Assembly: GCA_958296125.1 (NCBI GenBank)
Contig: OY282444.1
Span: 1,855,940 to 1,919,939, forward strand
Source of the DNA: an uncultured Poribacteria bacterium
GTDB lineage: Bacteria > Poribacteria > WGA-4E > PCPOR2b
DNA length: 64,000 nucleotides
Reading direction: 5' to 3'
In this document: positions 36,646-56,217 of the stretch, one piece after another
Layout of the letters: each line of letters starts with the position of its first letter
How positions within the stretch are numbered: position 1 is the first letter of the stretch
Notes under the pieces: generated by a model
What the model was told of the DNA's origin: nothing
Databases searched by the model: none
Seen by the model: the letters and a program-made list of their open reading frames with translations, nothing else
Program-made: the position numbers and the translations under genes

Positions 36646-37395
36646 AAACTTTTTTGAGCGATTAAAATCGCCACAACGTCCCCCGCCATCTGTGTGAATT
36701 GGTGTGAGGTGCTGGAGGCGACAACCAAGGCAGTAGGTTTCTAACTTCGATCATCAATTGGGGTAAAGCTGTTTGCCGCCTAACCGTGCGGGAGGGAGTG
36801 TAGGGGACACTAGTGTAGAAGTTTACAAAGCAAGTTAAGTATTCACCAATGTCGCCTCAAGCGAAAAACTTTGACTCAGCCCGATAGAACTAGTCCTTCG
36901 CCTGAGTCAGGTCACAGAATTTGCCCATCTCCCGATATAAATCGGTACTGGCAAATCCAATCGGCCGGGGCTTGCTGCGCTATAGACTGGTTGCTCCCAA
37001 TCTCAAGGGGGAGAATTGGCGTTACACGGGTTTACAAAATTTGAATCTACCGAAATGTTCTTATGCTTGTATGCTCATTTGCATACTTTAGCAGCTCCAT
37101 AAAAACCTTCAAAGTAAATTCTGCGCTCCAAACGGACTGCACTGCCCTTATATCAATTAAAAATAGCCTGCCTACTCCGCTTCCCTCCCGTCATGTGGTT
37201 CGGTTCTTAGTTTTGGAGCACACGGTGCCAACTGAAACAATCGCTCCATTAAATCCGAATCCTCCTCCATGCTCCCTATATTTTTACTGATGTGCAAATC
37301 TGAATTTGCTATGTATGATATTAATTGGGTTAGATCGCGACGGGTACTTTTGGGACTGAGTGCAGTTGACACTTTCCAAATACAAAAGAATTGAG
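36646..37395. other. 750-bp intergenic region, no gene recognised
   Basis: Between the first HEAT lipoprotein gene and tamB. Only short frames are present, none with coding character. A small palindrome ACACTAGTGT lies near 36808. TTGACA occurs at 37367 but without a matching -10 before the tamB start. Confidence 0.4.
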
Positions 37396-40300
37396 ATGAA
37401 TTCTATGCGTAGACGAAATAAACTCTTAATTCTACTCACGCTTATTGGAGTGGCTCTTGTCATTGGGGGAGGACTGTTTTTAGGCACCCCCTACGTGCTC
37501 AACTGGACCCGCCTGGTGTTAGAATCTGAACTCCAAAAGCGGTTAAAACACCCGGTCACTATCGATCAGATTTCAGGAAATGTGTTGACCGGTTTGAATA
37601 TCAAAGGGGTTCAAATCGCGGATGCGAACCCAGAAAAGCCTCCTTTAATTTCTCTGGATGAAATCCGGATAAAATATAGATTATGGAGTTTGGCACGAAG
37701 GAAATTCCTCATCACTCGGTTGCATTTCAATCATCCCCAAATCAATGCTCGTATGGATGCAGACGGGGGTCTCAATCTAGCCAAGCTAATTCCGAAAGGT
37801 GGATCGGAGGCGGGTGTGAAACTTCCTATTCAACTGCTAATCTCTGATATTAGTATCGGAGATGGTGCTATCAATTTTGAAGATGGAAGAGGTTTTCTCA
37901 GAGTTGGAGTCGGCGGCATTTACAGTCGTAGTCGTGTTGATAGCTTCGTAAAAAACTGGAAGCACATCGGCCATCTGGAAGTGCGAGACGGACATTTTGA
38001 ACTGAATGGTGTTGAAACGCAGATTGATGAATTCAGAACTGAATTTGAGTTACAGCAAAATCGAGGTGTATTGCAATCACTGCGTCTAGCGTTAGGCAAT
38101 TCTCTACTGACCGTTTCCGGCGAGGCAAGTAATCCCAGCAAACAATCCCCACGAGTCGAAACCCAAATTCACGTAACGCTCGATTTCCATGACGTACAAA
38201 AAATCCTATCCTTCCCAGGGGAGATAGAAGGAGTCGCAAAAGTGGACGTAGAAGCCAGCGGGCCAGTGTCGGCACTTATCGGGAGATTTGGACTCAACCT
38301 CCCCTCCGTAAGGCTGAATGCGCTCCAACTTGAGAATCTTACTGTGCAAGCTGAGTTCACGCCAAATAGTTTCCGAATTACCAACATTGATGGGGGGCTT
38401 GCGTCAGGAAAACTGACAGGTGGGGTAGAAATCAACGTCCATCCCAAACAGGAGGATGCACAACGCTTGATGTATAAAGGATGGGTACAACTCAATTCCC
38501 TTCGGACGGAACAGCTGCTACCGATTAAAGATTTCTTGGATGTCAAAGCAGATTTGGGCGGTAAAATCCAATTCAGTGGTAACGGTTCAGACCTTCGCAA
38601 GATTGACCTTGACGGAAGCCTCCAATTAGACAATGCGACCCTAAATGGGGTGCCAATTCGCCTTTCAACAGCGCACTACCAGCTCAATGATGAGCATCTG
38701 TCGGTTACGGCGAACCTCGACGAGGCGCAAATTGAAATCAATGGCAACCCTGGATTAACCGATCCGCACGATATGGATCTGCGTATTACGAAAATCGATA
38801 TAGGTAAACTCGCACGGATTTTGCAAATGCCAGACCTCGCCGGCGAAGGCACACTCGCCGGAAAAAGCAGCACCAGCGTAGGGGATAGTCCTCGTTATTC
38901 CCTACGGGCTCACCTCAGTGTTCCAGAAGCAACGTTATACGATGTGCCAATCGGTGTATTGACAACTGATTTTCATTATACCGAGAATCAGGTTTTCCTG
39001 CACCTGATACGCCTTGTCAAAGGTGAGAGCGAATTGATTGCGGATGGCATCGCCCGGATTGAAGGGGATATTCCGATCGAACTCAAGGTACGTGCACAAC
39101 CACTCCAGATTGCGGACTATGTGCGCTTGACAGGAAGTGATCATCCAATCAAAGGGGTCGCAACAGGTGAATTGGTGCTGGACGGAACGCTATTACAGCT
39201 TGACGGTCGTGGCACGCTTCAGATTTTGAACGGCAAGGCATGGGATCTGGCACTTGATCCGCTAACGCTACCGATAGAGATTGAGAATTATATCGTGAAA
39301 ATTCCAGATTTTGAGTTATTAACCCGCGGCCAAAAGGCTATCCTCAACGCACAGATTGACCCAAATCAAGATTATGTAATTGATTTTCAAAGTGAGTCAA
39401 TGCAGCTGGCAGAGATTGCGCTCGCACGCGGTATGACTGACTTCTTGTTGGATGCTGATCTGGTTGTCACAGCCAAGGGACAAGCGAACGCGGCAGATCC
39501 AACGGCAAATCTTACCTTTGAGTTTGCAAATGTCACTTACGCAGGTCATCCGCTGGAAGACGTTTATATCACTGGTACCTACAGGGACAATGCGCTAAAC
39601 TTTGAGGGCGTTGGCTTTAATGATACCTGTCAAATCCGTGGAGTTTTGGAATCAATTGAGGACAACCCGTATCATATCACTGTTGATGGTGTGGGAGTTG
39701 ATCTCCTGCCGTTCCTGCGAATCTTTAATGCAGCAGACTATCTGACCGGCACAGCAGATGGTAATGTTAAGATTACAGGGATGCTAGAAGAGTTGCCAAA
39801 ATTTACGTTCCAGATGCTCCTGTCCAAGACTGACCTTGATGTTAAAGGATGGCAGTTGATTAATCCTGATCCGATTCGCGTTTCCTTTGCGGACAATCTA
39901 TGGCACGTGCAATCTCTCGTGATCGCTGATAAACGGGATGGCCGTCCATGCCTGAATGCGATGGGCACTTTTCCCATTGTGAGTGAATTGGAAGGCTCTA
40001 CACATGTGGATTCAAGGACTACCAATATCAGTTTTTCTGTAGAAGCCGACGGGTTCCCATTTGAAGGGGTATCATACCTGTTGGGGCTACCACCGCTCCT
40101 CTCAGGGAAAGTCAGCTACAAGCTCACGGGCAGCGGCACTTATACGGCACCACAGTTGGCACTCGATTGGACCATTCCAAATCTGACGGTTCAAACGCCC
40201 ATCGGTCCGATTGCGATTAGTGAAGCTGAAGGAAGTCTAGACTATCAGGATGGAAACCTCACCGTTGATTCTTTCGATCTACTTTTACTCGACAATCCCA

Positions 40301-43300
40301 TCAAAGTGCAGGGGGATGTGCAGATTGATCTCGATCATTTTCAATCTTCACGCTTCAACCTCCACGTTTCATGCCCCAATTTTGAGTTGAATTCTCACGA
40401 TTTTCAGAATTTGCCTGATTATCTGAATAATATGTTAATCCTATTAGATCTAGAAGCACAGATTACCGGCGATCTGGTTCAGCCGGAGTTGACCGCCTCG
40501 ATTGATGCGACGCAAAAAACAATGCAACTCTTGGATTTGCCCCAACCTGTTGAAGATCTGAACGTTGTGCTTCAGGTCTCAGCTGGCCAAAAGGCATCGC
40601 CTGACTTAATCGCGGTGAAGCTGAAATCGGCGGATTGGCAGTTCGGAGGAGGACAGTATCAGGCATCGGGGGCTTGGCGTTTACCCAAAACGGAGCCGGG
40701 ATTATCGCTCACCTCAATTATAGACACCTTGGAACAGAGCAATCCAGTCCTGTTTCAACTTCACGTCAACGGGGTAGATGTGAATTTCATCACCCCCCTG
40801 AACTACATAATGAAACGTGAAATCCTCAATATAGAGAGTCGAGCTAATGTAGTGCTTGAACTACAGGGCCACGGCTATCAGCCCGACCAAATGTCGGCGA
40901 CTCTCAGGTGTAGCGATCTGCGTACTCAGATTAACGACCATGATGTGCGGAATATCAATGAGATTCAGCTCCATTTCACAGATCGGAAACTCACACTCAG
41001 ACCAACCCAAATAGGTGAAGGCGGCTCTGCTTGGCTCAACGCTACAGGTACTATCGATCTTGATGGAAATATGGACCTTCATTTAGAGTTGGATCGACTG
41101 CCTTATGGCGTACTGCTCCCAGCAATAACACTAACGCTTTTTGATCAATCTTTCCTGAAGTTTGAAGGTTTTCTGACGAGTCAAATTCGTGTGCGTGGGG
41201 AACTTACAAATCCAATTATAACTGCAAAGTGGGAGTCGGATGGCCATATCGGAAACGCCAATCTTAAGGACAATGGAAGCGCAAGCTATCAGGAAAAATT
41301 GCTTTCCCTCCAAAACACGCAACAGATTGTCGGGGTGAACAAGCAGCTAGAGGTGTTTGGCACGATTCCGATTGATCTCGCCTTTCAGCCAATAGATCTC
41401 GCAGATCGATTTCTAAATCTACCGATCGATTTGAAATTACGAGGGCAGCAGATTTCTTTGGCCCCCATAGCGTTGCTATTGCCTCCGCTAATTGAACATG
41501 CCGATGGTATTGCTGACATAGACCTCAGAATACAGGGAACAACCGCTTCGCCTTACCCGCAAGGAAAGTTGTCACTTCAAAACGCTACGTTGAAGTTAGC
41601 GAACTTTGACATGCCAATTTCAAACGGGAAAGTTGAGTTGCGGGCGGATAAGGGAGAAATTCGTATCCCTACACTCAGTTTTCGGGTAGGTCAAGGGGAG
41701 TATGCAGCAGAAATCAACTGTAGACTTGCTGGACTTATCGCAACTGATTTTGAAATCTCCCGATTCGGAGTCCATAAAGCAAGAATTGCTGATTTTATCG
41801 GAGATAAATCAAGATTGCTTAATCCTATTGTGTCGCGGTTTTTGAATCCCGAAGCAATTGGGACGGAGGTGATGTCAACCGAAGTGTTGAATGGATATAT
41901 TACGGCGGAAGCCAGTTTGAAAATCCCAGTAAATCAGTTCCTCAGCCCCGGCAAGACTGCATGGATTCCAACATTTATTAAGCCATTCAATCCGCCAAAT
42001 GTGATTAAGTATGTAACAGGTCAGCTAAATATTCAAGATATTCTAATTGAAGGGTTAGGTTATCAGATTCGCAACTCTAGGCCGATTGAGATTCAACTTG
42101 TAAACCAGAAGCTCAGCTTGGAAAACGGATTCAGCTTAGAAGATCAAAAACCGGTGCTAGCCGAGGCAAAATGCCTGCGAGTTACAGGATTCGGAAGTTG
42201 GGAACTTGGCAAAAAATTGCTCTTTCATGTTGAAATGAAGAATCTTGATCTCGGCTTTATTTCAGGATTTCTCCCCGAAGCTTACGCGATTCGTGGTTTT
42301 TTGAACTCCTCTCTTGATATACGTGGAACGGATGCCGAACCGAAGATCTCCTTTATGTGGGAAACCCCGGAACTACGAATAAACCAAGTCGAGGTTGATC
42401 AGTTTACCGGTAGCGTCACGTATGAAGATCGAAAAATCCGAATTAGCGGAAAGCAAAACGACGATGCTCATCTGTCCATTGGGAACAATCACGCCGCTCT
42501 ATCTGCGCTGATTCCCTTTCACCTATCCTTACTGGAATTCAAAGCTGAACTGTTACCAGAGGATATTGAAGGCGGATTAGATATAGCTATCGGAGATTTA
42601 GATTTTTTATCTCTCATTTTTCCTCAATTTGCCTTTACCGAAGGTACAGGTGCCCTTAATGCCACGCTCGGCGGTCGATTTGACTCACCCGTGCTTAAAG
42701 GATCGACAAACTTGAGAGCACTTGCGTTCGAGCTGCCGGATTCACACATCAGGTTAGAAAACGGAACAGTACACCTCGATTTGACCGAGAAAGGGGTCAA
42801 TATTCAACGCATTACGGGAGATATGAACAGTGGCACCTTCGAGATTAACGGGGTAATACAATCCGATTGGTTCGATGTACAGCGTATAGATGTTGTTGCC
42901 GAGTTGGGTGAGGGGACCACGTTTGAGAAACCCGGATTTTACCAACTTAAGTGTCAAAGCGTCAACTTGCAGATGAAAGGTGCTATCACGACAGATGGAA
43001 ATCTCAAACTTCCACCGTTAAGAGGTTCAATCCGTGTCAAAGAAGGTCGATACGAGCAAGACTGGAAGCAGCTAGTTCAGGATTGGGTGGATAAGGCGGC
43101 AGAGGTACAGTTTGAGGTCTGGTTTGATTACCCTATCGTGCGCGATCTTCAATTAGACCTTGATATCATTGTCCCCAATAACTTTTGGGTGGAATCGAAT
43201 TTAGGGGAAATTTTTCCAACTGTCGGAGAAATTGAGATTGAAACATCAATTAACGGTGAGATTGTTGGACCGATCCAAAAACCTATTTTTAGCGGGCGTG

Positions 43301-43959
43301 TGGATCTGTTAGAAGGCAAATTGTCCCTCTCTGGAGGTCATCAATTCGAGATTCAGGAGGGATCATATGTAGAAAACAAAAATGCACTGGAATTTAACCC
43401 GTGGTATGAGATTACTGCCAAGACAGTTGAACCGATTCGGAATGTCCAAGTTCCAACTACAGACGGAGAAATCCGTACGAAAGATCTCAGAGTCGTTATG
43501 CATTTGAATGGTTACCTCAAGGATAAACATAAGTCAGAGTTTCGAGAGGAAGTTCTCAGAAAAGATGCTGGCGAAGAGTACCAATTGACTCAACAACAAA
43601 TCCTTTCTATTTTAACCCTTGGTGGAACAGATCCCCTTGACTCTGAAGCCTCTTCTATTCCAACCCGGGTCGTTCAACAGTATCTGAGTAGCCGGATTGC
43701 GAGTAGTCGTATTGCGAAGGTAGCGGGTTTAAGAGAAACCCGTTTCGATCTGAGTCCTGACAATTTTGAACAGTCGCGGTTCCTTTTGACGAAAGAACTT
43801 TCGCAGCACCTTTCGTTGACTTACTCTTCAACCTTCCAACTTCACACAGAGCCTCGGATTGAGGTAGAATATCAAATTAGTCGATATTTTTATATCAAAG
43901 GAGAACGGAATGAGCGCGGAAAATACGGCGTAGACCTCAAGCTGGAACAACGATTTTAG
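37396..43959 (+). CDS. tamB: TamB-family translocation/assembly protein (DUF490)
   Basis: From ATG 37396, about 2187 residues, longer than E. coli TamB (about 1259). An N-terminal membrane segment at about 11-36 (KLLILLTLIGVALVIGGG) anchors it in the inner membrane. The body is a very long array of beta-strands typical of TamB/AsmA-like lipid-bridge proteins (repeats such as GxANxxG..., ...LKGxVxxxDG). The C-terminus holds the DUF490 domain: LTLGGTDPLDSEA, RVVQQYLSSRIASSRIAKVA and YQISRYFYIKGERNERGKYG. TamB bridges the periplasm and pairs with an Omp85 partner in outer-membrane assembly or phospholipid transport. HEAT lipoproteins flank it and a BamA-type barrel follows, so all four form one assembly locus. 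The start could also be the Met three codons downstream; the Shine-Dalgarno is weak. Confidence 0.9.
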   Translation: MNSMRRRNKLLILLTLIGVALVIGGGLFLGTPYVLNWTRLVLESELQKRLKHPVTIDQISGNVLTGLNIKGVQIADANPEKPPLISLDEIRIKYRLWSLARRKFLITRLHFNHPQINARMDADGGLNLAKLIPKGGSEAGVKLPIQLLISDISIGDGAINFEDGRGFLRVGVGGIYSRSRVDSFVKNWKHIGHLEVRDGHFELNGVETQIDEFRTEFELQQNRGVLQSLRLALGNSLLTVSGEASNPSKQSPRVETQIHVTLDFHDVQKILSFPGEIEGVAKVDVEASGPVSALIGRFGLNLPSVRLNALQLENLTVQAEFTPNSFRITNIDGGLASGKLTGGVEINVHPKQEDAQRLMYKGWVQLNSLRTEQLLPIKDFLDVKADLGGKIQFSGNGSDLRKIDLDGSLQLDNATLNGVPIRLSTAHYQLNDEHLSVTANLDEAQIEINGNPGLTDPHDMDLRITKIDIGKLARILQMPDLAGEGTLAGKSSTSVGDSPRYSLRAHLSVPEATLYDVPIGVLTTDFHYTENQVFLHLIRLVKGESELIADGIARIEGDIPIELKVRAQPLQIADYVRLTGSDHPIKGVATGELVLDGTLLQLDGRGTLQILNGKAWDLALDPLTLPIEIENYIVKIPDFELLTRGQKAILNAQIDPNQDYVIDFQSESMQLAEIALARGMTDFLLDADLVVTAKGQANAADPTANLTFEFANVTYAGHPLEDVYITGTYRDNALNFEGVGFNDTCQIRGVLESIEDNPYHITVDGVGVDLLPFLRIFNAADYLTGTADGNVKITGMLEELPKFTFQMLLSKTDLDVKGWQLINPDPIRVSFADNLWHVQSLVIADKRDGRPCLNAMGTFPIVSELEGSTHVDSRTTNISFSVEADGFPFEGVSYLLGLPPLLSGKVSYKLTGSGTYTAPQLALDWTIPNLTVQTPIGPIAISEAEGSLDYQDGNLTVDSFDLLLLDNPIKVQGDVQIDLDHFQSSRFNLHVSCPNFELNSHDFQNLPDYLNNMLILLDLEAQITGDLVQPELTASIDATQKTMQLLDLPQPVEDLNVVLQVSAGQKASPDLIAVKLKSADWQFGGGQYQASGAWRLPKTEPGLSLTSIIDTLEQSNPVLFQLHVNGVDVNFITPLNYIMKREILNIESRANVVLELQGHGYQPDQMSATLRCSDLRTQINDHDVRNINEIQLHFTDRKLTLRPTQIGEGGSAWLNATGTIDLDGNMDLHLELDRLPYGVLLPAITLTLFDQSFLKFEGFLTSQIRVRGELTNPIITAKWESDGHIGNANLKDNGSASYQEKLLSLQNTQQIVGVNKQLEVFGTIPIDLAFQPIDLADRFLNLPIDLKLRGQQISLAPIALLLPPLIEHADGIADIDLRIQGTTASPYPQGKLSLQNATLKLANFDMPISNGKVELRADKGEIRIPTLSFRVGQGEYAAEINCRLAGLIATDFEISRFGVHKARIADFIGDKSRLLNPIVSRFLNPEAIGTEVMSTEVLNGYITAEASLKIPVNQFLSPGKTAWIPTFIKPFNPPNVIKYVTGQLNIQDILIEGLGYQIRNSRPIEIQLVNQKLSLENGFSLEDQKPVLAEAKCLRVTGFGSWELGKKLLFHVEMKNLDLGFISGFLPEAYAIRGFLNSSLDIRGTDAEPKISFMWETPELRINQVEVDQFTGSVTYEDRKIRISGKQNDDAHLSIGNNHAALSALIPFHLSLLEFKAELLPEDIEGGLDIAIGDLDFLSLIFPQFAFTEGTGALNATLGGRFDSPVLKGSTNLRALAFELPDSHIRLENGTVHLDLTEKGVNIQRITGDMNSGTFEINGVIQSDWFDVQRIDVVAELGEGTTFEKPGFYQLKCQSVNLQMKGAITTDGNLKLPPLRGSIRVKEGRYEQDWKQLVQDWVDKAAEVQFEVWFDYPIVRDLQLDLDIIVPNNFWVESNLGEIFPTVGEIEIETSINGEIVGPIQKPIFSGRVDLLEGKLSLSGGHQFEIQEGSYVENKNALEFNPWYEITAKTVEPIRNVQVPTTDGEIRTKDLRVVMHLNGYLKDKHKSEFREEVLRKDAGEEYQLTQQQILSILTLGGTDPLDSEASSIPTRVVQQYLSSRIASSRIAKVAGLRETRFDLSPDNFEQSRFLLTKELSQHLSLTYSSTFQLHTEPRIEVEYQISRYFYIKGERNERGKYGVDLKLEQRF

Positions 43960-52729: not shown

Positions 52730-53383
52730 CTAGAACAGGGTGCCAAGCCAGTTGTTTAAGAGAAAATCAACGCGTTGAATCAAAAGGGCAACACGTCCCA
52801 TCACAGTGTTGCCGAATGCAGAGCCGAACCCGATCATGAGGAAAGCAATCCCAATTTTTGAAATCCCAGCAATAGCTCCTTGGTGTTCCACCGAGAAGAA
52901 AAAATAGGTGAGTGTGCAAATAACCCCAATCACCATGAGGATTGCGCCAAAAATCTCAAACGCACTTAGCCTCCCTATTTGTGAAAATGGTGTAAGGGTT
53001 CCATGCGTTTGCGCGAAAATGTCCGCCTGCAACACATTCGGAATGGCGATTCCGGAGCCAACACCGATAAGAATAGCAAGGGGATACCGAATCAGCCACG
53101 AATGCCGCCGCGACAATCGGGCGAAGAACAACAGGCCGATACAAATCGGAATCAAATTTAGTAAGCCCCAGCGCGATGCTTCTCCTTCTCCTGTTATCGC
53201 TTGCCAAAGTGGATTCCATGCCAACGGGATTAAGCCTTGATGGATAGTGATAACAATGCCATATCCAACCGCTAAACCTATAAAGAGGTGTTCTGCAAAC
53301 CGATAAAACGGGTTATCTCGATAAAGAAAACTATAGATACAGAACGTCAAAAATGCTGCGACCCAAATGCCAAAAACTTCCAT
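52730..53383 (-). CDS. Membrane protein of the four-gene cassette (gene 4)
   Basis: 217 residues, GAGGAG before the ATG. About six membrane segments: FGIWVAAFLTFCIYSFL, FIGLAVGYGIVITIHQGLI, LNLIPICIGLLFFARLS, PLAILIGVGSGIAIPNV, FGAILMVIGVICTLTYFFF and IGIAFLMIGFGSAFGN. The last helix carries a re-entrant-like GFGSAFGN motif. No known family recognised. It is the last of four tightly packed minus-strand genes. Confidence 0.66.
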   Translation of the reverse strand: MEVFGIWVAAFLTFCIYSFLYRDNPFYRFAEHLFIGLAVGYGIVITIHQGLIPLAWNPLWQAITGEGEASRWGLLNLIPICIGLLFFARLSRRHSWLIRYPLAILIGVGSGIAIPNVLQADIFAQTHGTLTPFSQIGRLSAFEIFGAILMVIGVICTLTYFFFSVEHQGAIAGISKIGIAFLMIGFGSAFGNTVMGRVALLIQRVDFLLNNWLGTLF

Positions 53384-53388
53384 AGAAT

Positions 53389-54234
53389 CTACTCCTCTCG
53401 TTGTGACCGGGATGACGCTCCTACAGATTGCCGTTGATGAACAAAGAAAGCAATATTGCTCATAATCACCAACCCCACAATCAACAGGTGGGCAAAAGAT
53501 TCGGTGTTTATTCCTTCCGTACCCTTTGCAGGTGCGTTTATCAATTTCTCATACTCAGCGGCACCCAAGAATCCGGGCATCAAACCGACCAACTGCCCCG
53601 TCTGTAAGTAGGGATACATTTGGGAGACAATGACACCGGTGACCCCGGCGGCAATCTGCAGACCGTACTTCACGTTCGCGTAAGTAATCCAGATTTCTAC
53701 CGTACTTCCAGCGGAGAGGTCTAAGAGCAAATCAATTTGGTCATAGTTGGTGATATTTGCCATCATCGGGATTTCGGATAGGGGTTTTCCTGTATAATCG
53801 CTTTCAAAGACACCAGCGATTTCGGTTCCCATGCCAAGAATGACTTGGGTGACCCCTGGTCGGAATCCAAGTAGGACATAATCTTTACCATACACGGCCC
53901 CTTTTTCTTCCGAGACTTTCTGCATGAGTTTATCGGCAAGTGTAACAGCATCAACTATCAATGTGACTCCGATGATCCGCACCCCTTTATCAAAGCAGTG
54001 TTTCATCACCGCTTCTGCCATTGGAGCGGGTTCCGCTAGGGAGGATGGGCCGTAGTCAAAAGCAAGCATGATAGTCGATCCGGGGGGAAGCGCGTCAATG
54101 TAGTCGTAGAGTTTCTGCGTTGGCTCAGAGCCGGTGATTGGCAAGTTGACCGGTAGCAATGTTGGAATGATCACTGACAGCGCAATGGCGATAAAGATAA
54201 TGCGGCGGTCTATATTCATGAGTTTCTCAAGCAT
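53389..54234 (-). CDS. Unknown secreted/membrane protein of the cassette (gene 3)
   Basis: 281 residues, AGGAGGAGAT before the ATG. N-terminal signal/anchor (about 10-32, IIFIAIALSVIIPTLLPV), an extracytoplasmic alpha/beta domain (for example MLAFDYGPSSLAEPAPMAEA, RIIGVTLIVDAVTLADK, YVLLGFRPGVTQVILGMGT), and a C-terminal membrane helix (AHLLIVGLVIMSNIAFFV). The order of strands and helices suggests a Rossmann-like or VWA-like fold. No family recognised. Start and stop are packed against neighbours: 3 bases to the next gene upstream and 5 bases to the gene downstream. Confidence 0.6.
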   Translation of the reverse strand: MLEKLMNIDRRIIFIAIALSVIIPTLLPVNLPITGSEPTQKLYDYIDALPPGSTIMLAFDYGPSSLAEPAPMAEAVMKHCFDKGVRIIGVTLIVDAVTLADKLMQKVSEEKGAVYGKDYVLLGFRPGVTQVILGMGTEIAGVFESDYTGKPLSEIPMMANITNYDQIDLLLDLSAGSTVEIWITYANVKYGLQIAAGVTGVIVSQMYPYLQTGQLVGLMPGFLGAAEYEKLINAPAKGTEGINTESFAHLLIVGLVIMSNIAFFVHQRQSVGASSRSQREE

Positions 54235-54237
54235 CGA

Positions 54238-54930
54238 CTAATCTCCTCCTAGGTACGAGCGTTCAATTCCCAAGATAATCCGGATGGATTGTGAAATCAC
54301 GCCTAGACTGACCCCGAGGATAATCCCACGTCGTGCTGAAAGGTTGGGGTTATCTAAAATCCACTGGCGAGCGGTTGAGGTGACATCGTCCCAAGGAGTC
54401 CAAGCCATCACCGTATTCCAAATCAGATCTCCGATGGGCACATTTCCCATCATCACAATTAGGGCAGTGATAAGGAGTAGGGTAGCCTCAAACGTTCGGG
54501 CACGAAAGGCACGGTATGCCGCGGACGCAATAAAGAAAGCGAGCAGTGAAAACATTGTTGCGTCCATCGGTACCTGGACGTTGTTGAATAACCACTCAAA
54601 TATAGGACTCTTAGGACCAAACGATAGGCCTATCTTGGAAAGGAAGGAAACGTTATTAAGAAAGGTGGGGACACCTATCAGCACCATGATAATGATGCCA
54701 ATGAACACAACATAACTGTATTGCCAATGTTCTGTGTGGCGGCTGATGCGCGTCCAGTGGGTTTGGATAAGCGTTGCCACTGCTAACACCAATGCGAAAG
54801 GCGAAATGATGAGTGACCAGTTGACAATTCCTTGGTAAAGCCCTTGAGAGCGTGAATGTGGAACGAACTCAGTGAGAATCATCACAATGCCGAAAAGAAA
54901 GCAGAGCACTAAGGGTACTTGTCGCGTCAT
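54238..54930 (-). CDS. Membrane protein of the cassette (gene 2)
   Basis: The ATG at 54930 (after TAGGAGG) gives 230 residues; the extra residues in the longer frame overlap the upstream gene. Multi-pass: PLVLCFLFGIVMILTEFV, SLIISPFALVLAVATLI, YSYVVFIGIIIMVLIGV, TMFSLLAFFIASAAYRAF, ATLLLITALIVMMGN and GIILGVSLGVISQSIRI. Arg- and Lys-rich loops (RAFRARTFE, TRISRHTEHW) suggest a cytoplasmic interaction face. No recognised family. Confidence 0.6.
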   Translation of the reverse strand: MTRQVPLVLCFLFGIVMILTEFVPHSRSQGLYQGIVNWSLIISPFALVLAVATLIQTHWTRISRHTEHWQYSYVVFIGIIIMVLIGVPTFLNNVSFLSKIGLSFGPKSPIFEWLFNNVQVPMDATMFSLLAFFIASAAYRAFRARTFEATLLLITALIVMMGNVPIGDLIWNTVMAWTPWDDVTSTARQWILDNPNLSARRGIILGVSLGVISQSIRIILGIERSYLGGD

Positions 54931-54938
54931 AAAGCCTC

Positions 54939-56120
54939 CTAACTGACTCTTTGTAAGAAAGTTGTTATCCAATTGACACCGAGTAATTCAAGAATCACGC
55001 CGAGGACGATAGCCGCAAAAATGAATAGCTTGCCCCAATCTTGCCCTCTAAGACTTCCGAGCAGCATCGGTTCTTTAGACAGATAAGCACTAGCGGCATA
55101 GAGTTCTTCGCCTATTAGGGTGTAATCACATGCTGCGATGAAGAAAGGGAGCTGATGTTCAGAAGCGGTTCCGGCGATTTGAATGGCACCAATAGAATTT
55201 CCGGTTTCAGCGAGAATCAGCGATTCAGCATAGAACGTACCTTGCAGGAAAACAGCCGCCGGTTTCTCGCGAACCATGATGCCATCAACCCCGGCGGCAT
55301 AAGCAAACTGGCTTTCGGTAAGAAAGAAAATGTTTTCCTCGTTGTAGGCATCGGGACGGCCTTCATTGAGATAGGAACTTCTCACTATCTCGCGCACCAC
55401 GTTCAGCACAACCGGGTCATTGCACGGTACACGCAAAGGCGTTTCATAGTCCGCTGTCCTTCGAGCTACCTGCCCCAGAATCGTCATGCTGGCAATGGTC
55501 GCGACATCACTTACTCCGCCTAACCCTAAGACATATAGAATTGAGCGTCCCATCTCTGTTGCCCTACCGATGGCTTCATCCACTGCCTCTAAGCCGGGGA
55601 TACGGCGGACAAATATTTCTTTTCCACTCTGGGCATGATAGATATTCCAAACAATCGCTATGGAAAAAAGAAGCATTGCGAGAAACAGCGGAATTTTTTT
55701 GGTATGAAACCACTCCCCTGTCCCTTTAACAAAGTCAGTTTCCCCGGAATCGAATGTCGTCCCATCTTCGGTAACAGCGCGCACGATATAGGCGTAGGGA
55801 GTGCCCTCTTCGATTGTTGAATCTTTGTATTCGGTTGTTTCTGGGGGTAGTAACGGCCCGACTTCCTCAAACTCGCCCGTTTCAATGCGCCGTAGAATTT
55901 GGTATCCCCTGACACGGTTCGCCACGGATATTCCATCTACCGCCTTCTCCCACGTAATTGTTATACTTTTGCCAGCATCATTGGGTGTATCCTTGGCATC
56001 AACGTTCATCGGCGGCGTGACTCCTTGTGCAAAGGTGTTGAGGCCAAACCCAAGCACAAAAACCAATATAACCAACCCTTGAACCACCGGGGACGGACAA
56101 AGGATTTTTTGCCCCTTCAT
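54939..56120 (-). CDS. FN3-domain plus DUF6754-like membrane protein (gene 1 of cassette)
   Basis: The ATG at 56120 (after GGAGGTTAC) gives 393 residues. Signal peptide at about 11-30 (VVQGLVILVFVLGFGLNTFA), one fibronectin type III domain (about 32-130, with VANRVRGYQILRR and TPYAYIVRAVTEDGTTF), a membrane helix (IPLFLAMLLFSIAIVW), a conserved cytoplasmic-type DUF6754 domain (VDEAIGRATEMGRSILYVLG, AGVDGIMVREKPAAVFLQG) and a final helix (LFIFAAIVLGVILELLGV). DUF6754 is uncharacterised; the identification is by resemblance. It heads the cassette behind a consensus-like promoter at 56189-56217. Confidence 0.68.
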   Translation of the reverse strand: MKGQKILCPSPVVQGLVILVFVLGFGLNTFAQGVTPPMNVDAKDTPNDAGKSITITWEKAVDGISVANRVRGYQILRRIETGEFEEVGPLLPPETTEYKDSTIEEGTPYAYIVRAVTEDGTTFDSGETDFVKGTGEWFHTKKIPLFLAMLLFSIAIVWNIYHAQSGKEIFVRRIPGLEAVDEAIGRATEMGRSILYVLGLGGVSDVATIASMTILGQVARRTADYETPLRVPCNDPVVLNVVREIVRSSYLNEGRPDAYNEENIFFLTESQFAYAAGVDGIMVREKPAAVFLQGTFYAESLILAETGNSIGAIQIAGTASEHQLPFFIAACDYTLIGEELYAASAYLSKEPMLLGSLRGQDWGKLFIFAAIVLGVILELLGVNWITTFLQRVS

Positions 56121-56188
56121 TTTGTAACCTCCAGTCTTTTGGTGCGGTGCGTCTATTTCTGTGGTTGAGAATATCATTACTAGCTGTG

Positions 56189-56217
56189 AGTATAGCCCCG
56201 TATTGCAAGTCTGTCAA
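56189..56217 (-). promoter_or_regulatory. Promoter of the four-gene membrane cassette
   Basis: On the minus strand TTGACA (56217-56212), 17 bases, TATACT (56194-56189). It lies about 70 bases upstream of the first cassette gene. Confidence 0.72.

Follow-up and report, generated by a model that had tools for sequence, protein, structure and literature searches.

Four tightly packed genes of an uncultured Poribacteria bacterium, here designated A, B, C and D, form a membrane-protein cassette that is kept contiguous in genomes of other phyla and recurs there beside genes for an ASKHA-fold protein (M), a soluble barrel-sandwich protein (X) and two small proteins (E and P). From their sequences we tentatively suggest that these genes could encode an undescribed cell-envelope machine of many phyla, powered by an ASKHA ATPase that would work through a barrel-sandwich adaptor; its membrane core would have four proteins, and its outer modules would be exchangeable.

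Organization of the four-gene cassette

The cassette lies on the minus strand of the window, i.e., the whole 64,000-nucleotide stretch that was analysed, which is part of a 5.16 Mb genome in a single contig. All four genes are present and run from position 56120 down to 52730. The features are as follows:

56189..56217, minus strand: promoter-like site TTGACA-17-TATACT just upstream of A, 11 of 12 consensus positions, identified by consensus match alone
54939..56120, minus strand: gene A, 393 aa; signal/anchor helix, FN3 ectodomain, transmembrane (TM) helix, predicted cytoplasmic DUF6754 alpha/beta domain, TM helix
55707..56030, minus strand: FN3 domain of A, residues about 31-138; fold match to titin FN3 and weak Pfam fn3 match
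54957..55718, minus strand: DUF6754 region of A (PF20539); TM helix, predicted cytoplasmic alpha/beta domain, TM helix
54238..54930, minus strand: gene B, 230 aa; membrane protein of about six helices, by hydropathy and family alignment
53389..54234, minus strand: gene C, 281 aa; membrane helix, predicted extracytoplasmic Rossmann-like domain, membrane helix, by AF2, fold and topology
52730..53383, minus strand: gene D, 217 aa; membrane protein of about six helices, by hydropathy and family alignment

Gene A starts at ATG 56120, with an upstream GGAGG that we read as its ribosome-binding site; a longer open reading frame reaching 56177 is unlikely to mark the true start. The start of B is ATG 54930, where AGGAGG overlaps the stop codon of A, and the starts of C (ATG 54234) and D (ATG 53383) were also judged by ribosome-binding sites. 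The initial annotation had described four genes spaced by 3-8 bases behind one promoter. The spacing is borne out by intergenic gaps of 8, 3 and 5 bases. The single promoter ahead of A is plausible: TTGACA-17-TATACT ranks first among the five sites found in a promoter scan, but 5.2 sites are expected by chance at the lower threshold of that scan. Elsewhere in the window, positions 37360-43959 hold a plus-strand open reading frame of 2199 aa.

Protein A and its variable ectodomain

Protein A is a full-length, high-scoring member of DUF6754 (PF20539; 9e-123, 408.9 bits against a cut-off of 27, model positions 3-256 of 257), a Pfam entry that is a domain of unknown function and outside which B, C, D, X, M, E and P all fall. 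The Pfam fn3 score of A is 22, just below the cut-off of 25, and the FN3 fold is clear in the predicted structure (AF2, pLDDT 91.6), which superposes on a titin FN3 domain with a VIA-align Z of 13.6 and 2.1 Å over 99 residues. Matches in the fold search with A were mostly to FN3, and the DUF6754 part was thus hardly covered. Nearly all of the 33 columns that are invariant across 56 A sequences fall within the DUF6754 region. In 85 proteins the mean net charge flanking the second helix of A is -0.2 before and +1.95 after, and this bias predicts that the FN3 domain faces outward and that the conserved alpha/beta domain of DUF6754 is cytoplasmic. The description of A as an exported FN3/DUF6754 protein therefore holds for its two domains, but the charge topology indicates a membrane protein rather than one that is simply exported.

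The stretch of A ahead of DUF6754 spans 44 to 787 residues, and we therefore regard FN3 as accessory. Between paralogous A proteins within one locus, identity averages 38% in the ectodomain versus 64% in DUF6754 (21 non-independent pairs). An export or adhesion machine in which FN3, or the ectodomain of A more broadly, is the adhesive or secreted part would agree with an FN3 domain on the outside and with the membrane cassette, but we consider it rather improbable on several grounds: (i) Short A proteins (266-292 aa) have no FN3 domain, yet the rest is retained. (ii) A is membrane-anchored. (iii) No exported-substrate gene recurs nearby. Because FN3 is variable and sometimes missing, the cassette is unlikely to serve mainly for adhesion through this domain.

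Proteins B, C and D

As the initial annotation had stated, two of the remaining proteins are multi-pass membrane proteins, B and D having about six helices each, and one is an alpha/beta protein with a membrane anchor. The latter is C, in which two membrane helices flank a Rossmann-like domain (AF2 model, pLDDT 95.7); by the charge rule this domain is predicted to be extracytoplasmic. The best fold match of C is 1kjn (Z 9.9, 3.7 Å over 139 residues), followed by many unrelated families. Since the Rossmann-like arrangement is common, we assign no function from the fold.

None of B, C and D in the window matches a Pfam family above cut-off, and a Pfam scan of every member of their alignments returned scattered weak matches with no consistent family. 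No common origin was detectable for B and D, or for A and C. The earlier statement that these proteins lack known homologs is correct in that no relative has a named function, but relatives in sequence are widespread. One locus outside the usual pattern (L082, 2263-9208, in G204) carries four C paralogs with a single A, B and D, in the order A-B-C-D-C-C-C in the reading direction; the extra copies hint at a hetero-oligomer of C.

Conservation of the cassette across genomes

Within the Poribacteria phylum, PF20539 is present in all but three of the 85 genomes (82), and in 55 of 56 when only those of good quality are counted. Outside the phylum, in a set of 302 genomes that is a sample rather than a full census, A is present in 81 genomes spread over 59 families; it is absent from all 14 well-known control genomes. 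A profile of C applied to 289 genomes found C in 51 from outside the phylum, and all but one of these (50) are A-positive as well. Plasmid records contained neither A nor X.

Loci were retrieved from 66 genomes outside the phylum, and A was seen in 54 of these. In 50 of the 54, A-B-C-D is contiguous with order and strand kept. This contiguity across phyla is far beyond chance, and the gene-neighbourhood check that had been proposed for the cassette finds it staying together. The whole A-B-C-D unit is moreover repeated head to tail two or three times in several genomes. At four loci (L072, L087, L113, L115) the cassette is extended past D by another A gene (A-B-C-D-A'), an arrangement that hints at paired A proteins. 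Gene order, strand, spacing and duplication as a unit strongly support the view that A-B-C-D is a functional unit, probably a complex. The stable complex suggested initially is backed to that extent, but the four genes would constitute only its membrane half.

A larger unit with M, X, E and P

In other phyla, the genes that recur beside the cassette are X (about 375 aa), M (about 610 aa) and the small E and P, and when loci around M and X are added the order of the full unit is P-E-M-X-A-B-C-D. Outside the phylum, M-X-A-B-C-D occurs in 20 genomes, and E-M-X-A-B-C-D is contiguous in 18. Within the 302-genome set, M accompanies A in 76 of the 81 A-bearing genomes (five are without a strong M), X likewise accompanies A in 76 of 81 (five without a detected X), and there is no case of X without A. 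Fisher values are 1.7e-54 for A-M and 4.9e-66 for A-X; they ignore relatedness and serve as a rough guide only. Seven of the nine genomes with M only carry a short, GlmL-sized form; of the remaining pair, G357 has a contig that breaks off just past M. No Pfam family scored above cut-off in the single X, E and P proteins scanned.

The unit is split in the window's own genome, where E-M (L130, 5623-7735) and X (L131, 7185-8306) lie away from A-B-C-D and no P was seen beside E. The separation of P, E, M and X from the cassette in this genome is a point against a single machine. In deep-branching Poribacteria (L095, L091) the unit is still joined. In most genomes that hold three to six copies of A, M and X are each single, by the counts of a first screen.

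Several loci differ in their arrangement or surroundings. The unit is scattered in G219 (L117, L144, L170), with X-A near 294 kb, M near 793 kb and C near 3,526 kb. A genome of about 0.9 Mb (G280, L151) keeps M, X, E and A-B-C-D together, and its A protein, at 292 aa, is too short for FN3. Beside the P-E-M-X part stand proteins like the glycine cleavage P subunit, as judged by eye, at six loci (L121, L135, L139, L143, L146, L155) and gapA-pgk-tpiA-like genes at four (L078, L091, L095, L118).

M is distinct from GlmL

The M protein of the window's genome matches Pfam MutL (PF13941), an ASKHA-fold family, with 416 bits, above the cut-off. M is very highly conserved, and both phosphate-binding motifs, DCGSTTTK and GVDIGGATTD, are kept in 47 sequences. 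M thereby shares the fold family and both motifs with MutL/GlmL, but it is longer (about 610 aa versus 440-510 aa), forms a separate clade and occurs in genomes that nearly always lack GlmE. In a tree with ten short forms, a branch supported at 100/100 sets M apart as a separate clade; this branch is very long, and the placement of M relative to the short MutL forms is therefore tentative.

If M were GlmL, its linkage to the cassette would reflect amino-acid fermentation. Matches to the GlmL/MutL models are what this reading has in its favour, and we give it hardly any credence. GlmE (PF06368) is absent from the window's genome and is not above cut-off in 65 of 66 A-positive genomes, in a search whose control, short-MutL genomes, was positive in 3 of 7. 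In the sole A-positive carrier of GlmE (G202), GlmE adjoins a separate short MutL on one contig (C25) and the long M adjoins X on another (C19). The GlmL equivalog score of M is 225 bits against a cut-off of 475. The lack of GlmE in nearly all carriers, the separate clade and the sub-cut-off equivalog score speak strongly against M as the glutamate mutase accessory protein GlmL, and annotation of long MutL proteins as such should be avoided. At one locus (L142, G212), near 11.8-13.2 kb, M is in pieces of 131 and 474 aa with an in-frame TGA between them, which could be a sequencing error, a pseudogene or recoding.

X contains an RnfC/NqrA-like domain

X is soluble, and its N-terminal part is a barrel-sandwich domain of the kind shared by RnfC and NqrA. 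RnfC_N is matched in 11 of 15 X proteins (best 9.4e-6) and NQRA_N in 4, the matches being weak in single sequences. These matches, together with the invariant polar residues that family alignments reveal in the membrane proteins of the cassette, would suit a redox or ion-translocating complex akin to Rnf/Nqr in which X would substitute for RnfC/NqrA. We nonetheless consider such a complex very unlikely. Among the 15 X proteins there is no invariant or nearly invariant cysteine, and X is therefore without the RnfC iron-sulfur motif. Furthermore, no Rnf/Nqr partners were recognised, no Rnf/Nqr membrane family is prominent among members of B or D, and barrel-sandwich folds are found in many unrelated proteins.

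Proposed working of the system

We propose an ATP-dependent machine of the inner membrane in which A-B-C-D is the membrane-embedded half, M, E and X make up the cytoplasmic half and the outer module is exchangeable, a model to which we attach somewhat less than even confidence. It draws on properties that are observed or computed, i.e., gene linkage, co-occurrence, domain make-up, predicted topology, the intact motifs of M and ectodomain variability, and from these we infer a physical complex, ATP use, a direction of coupling and a role in the envelope. A, B, C and D would be embedded in the inner membrane. The cytoplasmic half, consisting of the ATP-binding M, its small partner E and soluble X, would dock on the cytoplasmic DUF6754 domain of A. 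M may then drive the membrane part through X, by ATP binding or hydrolysis, and ATP use would alter the state of the B and D helices and of the outward parts, namely the Rossmann-like domain of C and the A ectodomain. A single M-X set would suffice for several ABCD copies, among which the A ectodomain varies most. The ectodomain, a variable FN3 or something longer, is therefore probably an exchangeable module that contacts a substrate or a partner in the envelope. Such a machine would likely function in building the cell envelope or in moving material across it.

The main rival to the machine is a signalling receptor. As a membrane-spanning sensor, A would read an outside cue with its ectodomain, and DUF6754 would pass it to X and M, which would act as a signalling switch and not as a motor. 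A sensor would account for an ectodomain that varies much more than the cytoplasmic domain, and also for one soluble set shared by several membrane copies. However, two six-helix proteins and a second outer domain, that of C, are always kept, which is more than a receptor needs, and no regulator or output domain recurs among the neighbours. We therefore regard a receptor as unlikely, though a serious alternative. The recurrent neighbour clusters also contain no gene for a transported, assembled or exported substrate.

Comparison with known systems

In the PilM/PilN platform of type IV pili and the GspL platform of type II secretion, an ASKHA-fold protein works with inner-membrane proteins. The likeness of these platforms to M and the membrane cassette is an analogy of principle only; no pilin, secretin or traffic ATPase recurs in the neighbour clusters listed. 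At an E threshold of 0.01, none of A, B, C, D, M, X and E matched a PADLOC model of anti-phage defence. A link of A to the outer membrane was considered and set aside: Omp85 occurs in 79 of 81 A-positive genomes, but this co-occurrence is uninformative because nearly all sampled A-negative genomes carry Omp85 too. Neither DUF6754 nor PF20539 appears in the open literature searched. Since no known kind fits, we take the set, as far as sequence comparison and that literature reach, to be a system of a new kind.

The conserved togetherness of the unit points to an important function in the cell envelope. Given its presence in 59 families outside the phylum and in 55 of 56 good Poribacteria genomes, and its retention in a genome of 0.9 Mb, the gene set likely does something basic in the cell, although most of the proteins it encodes lack a named family. 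The link between DUF6754, a GlmL-like ASKHA protein and X makes this function testable in any cultured carrier.
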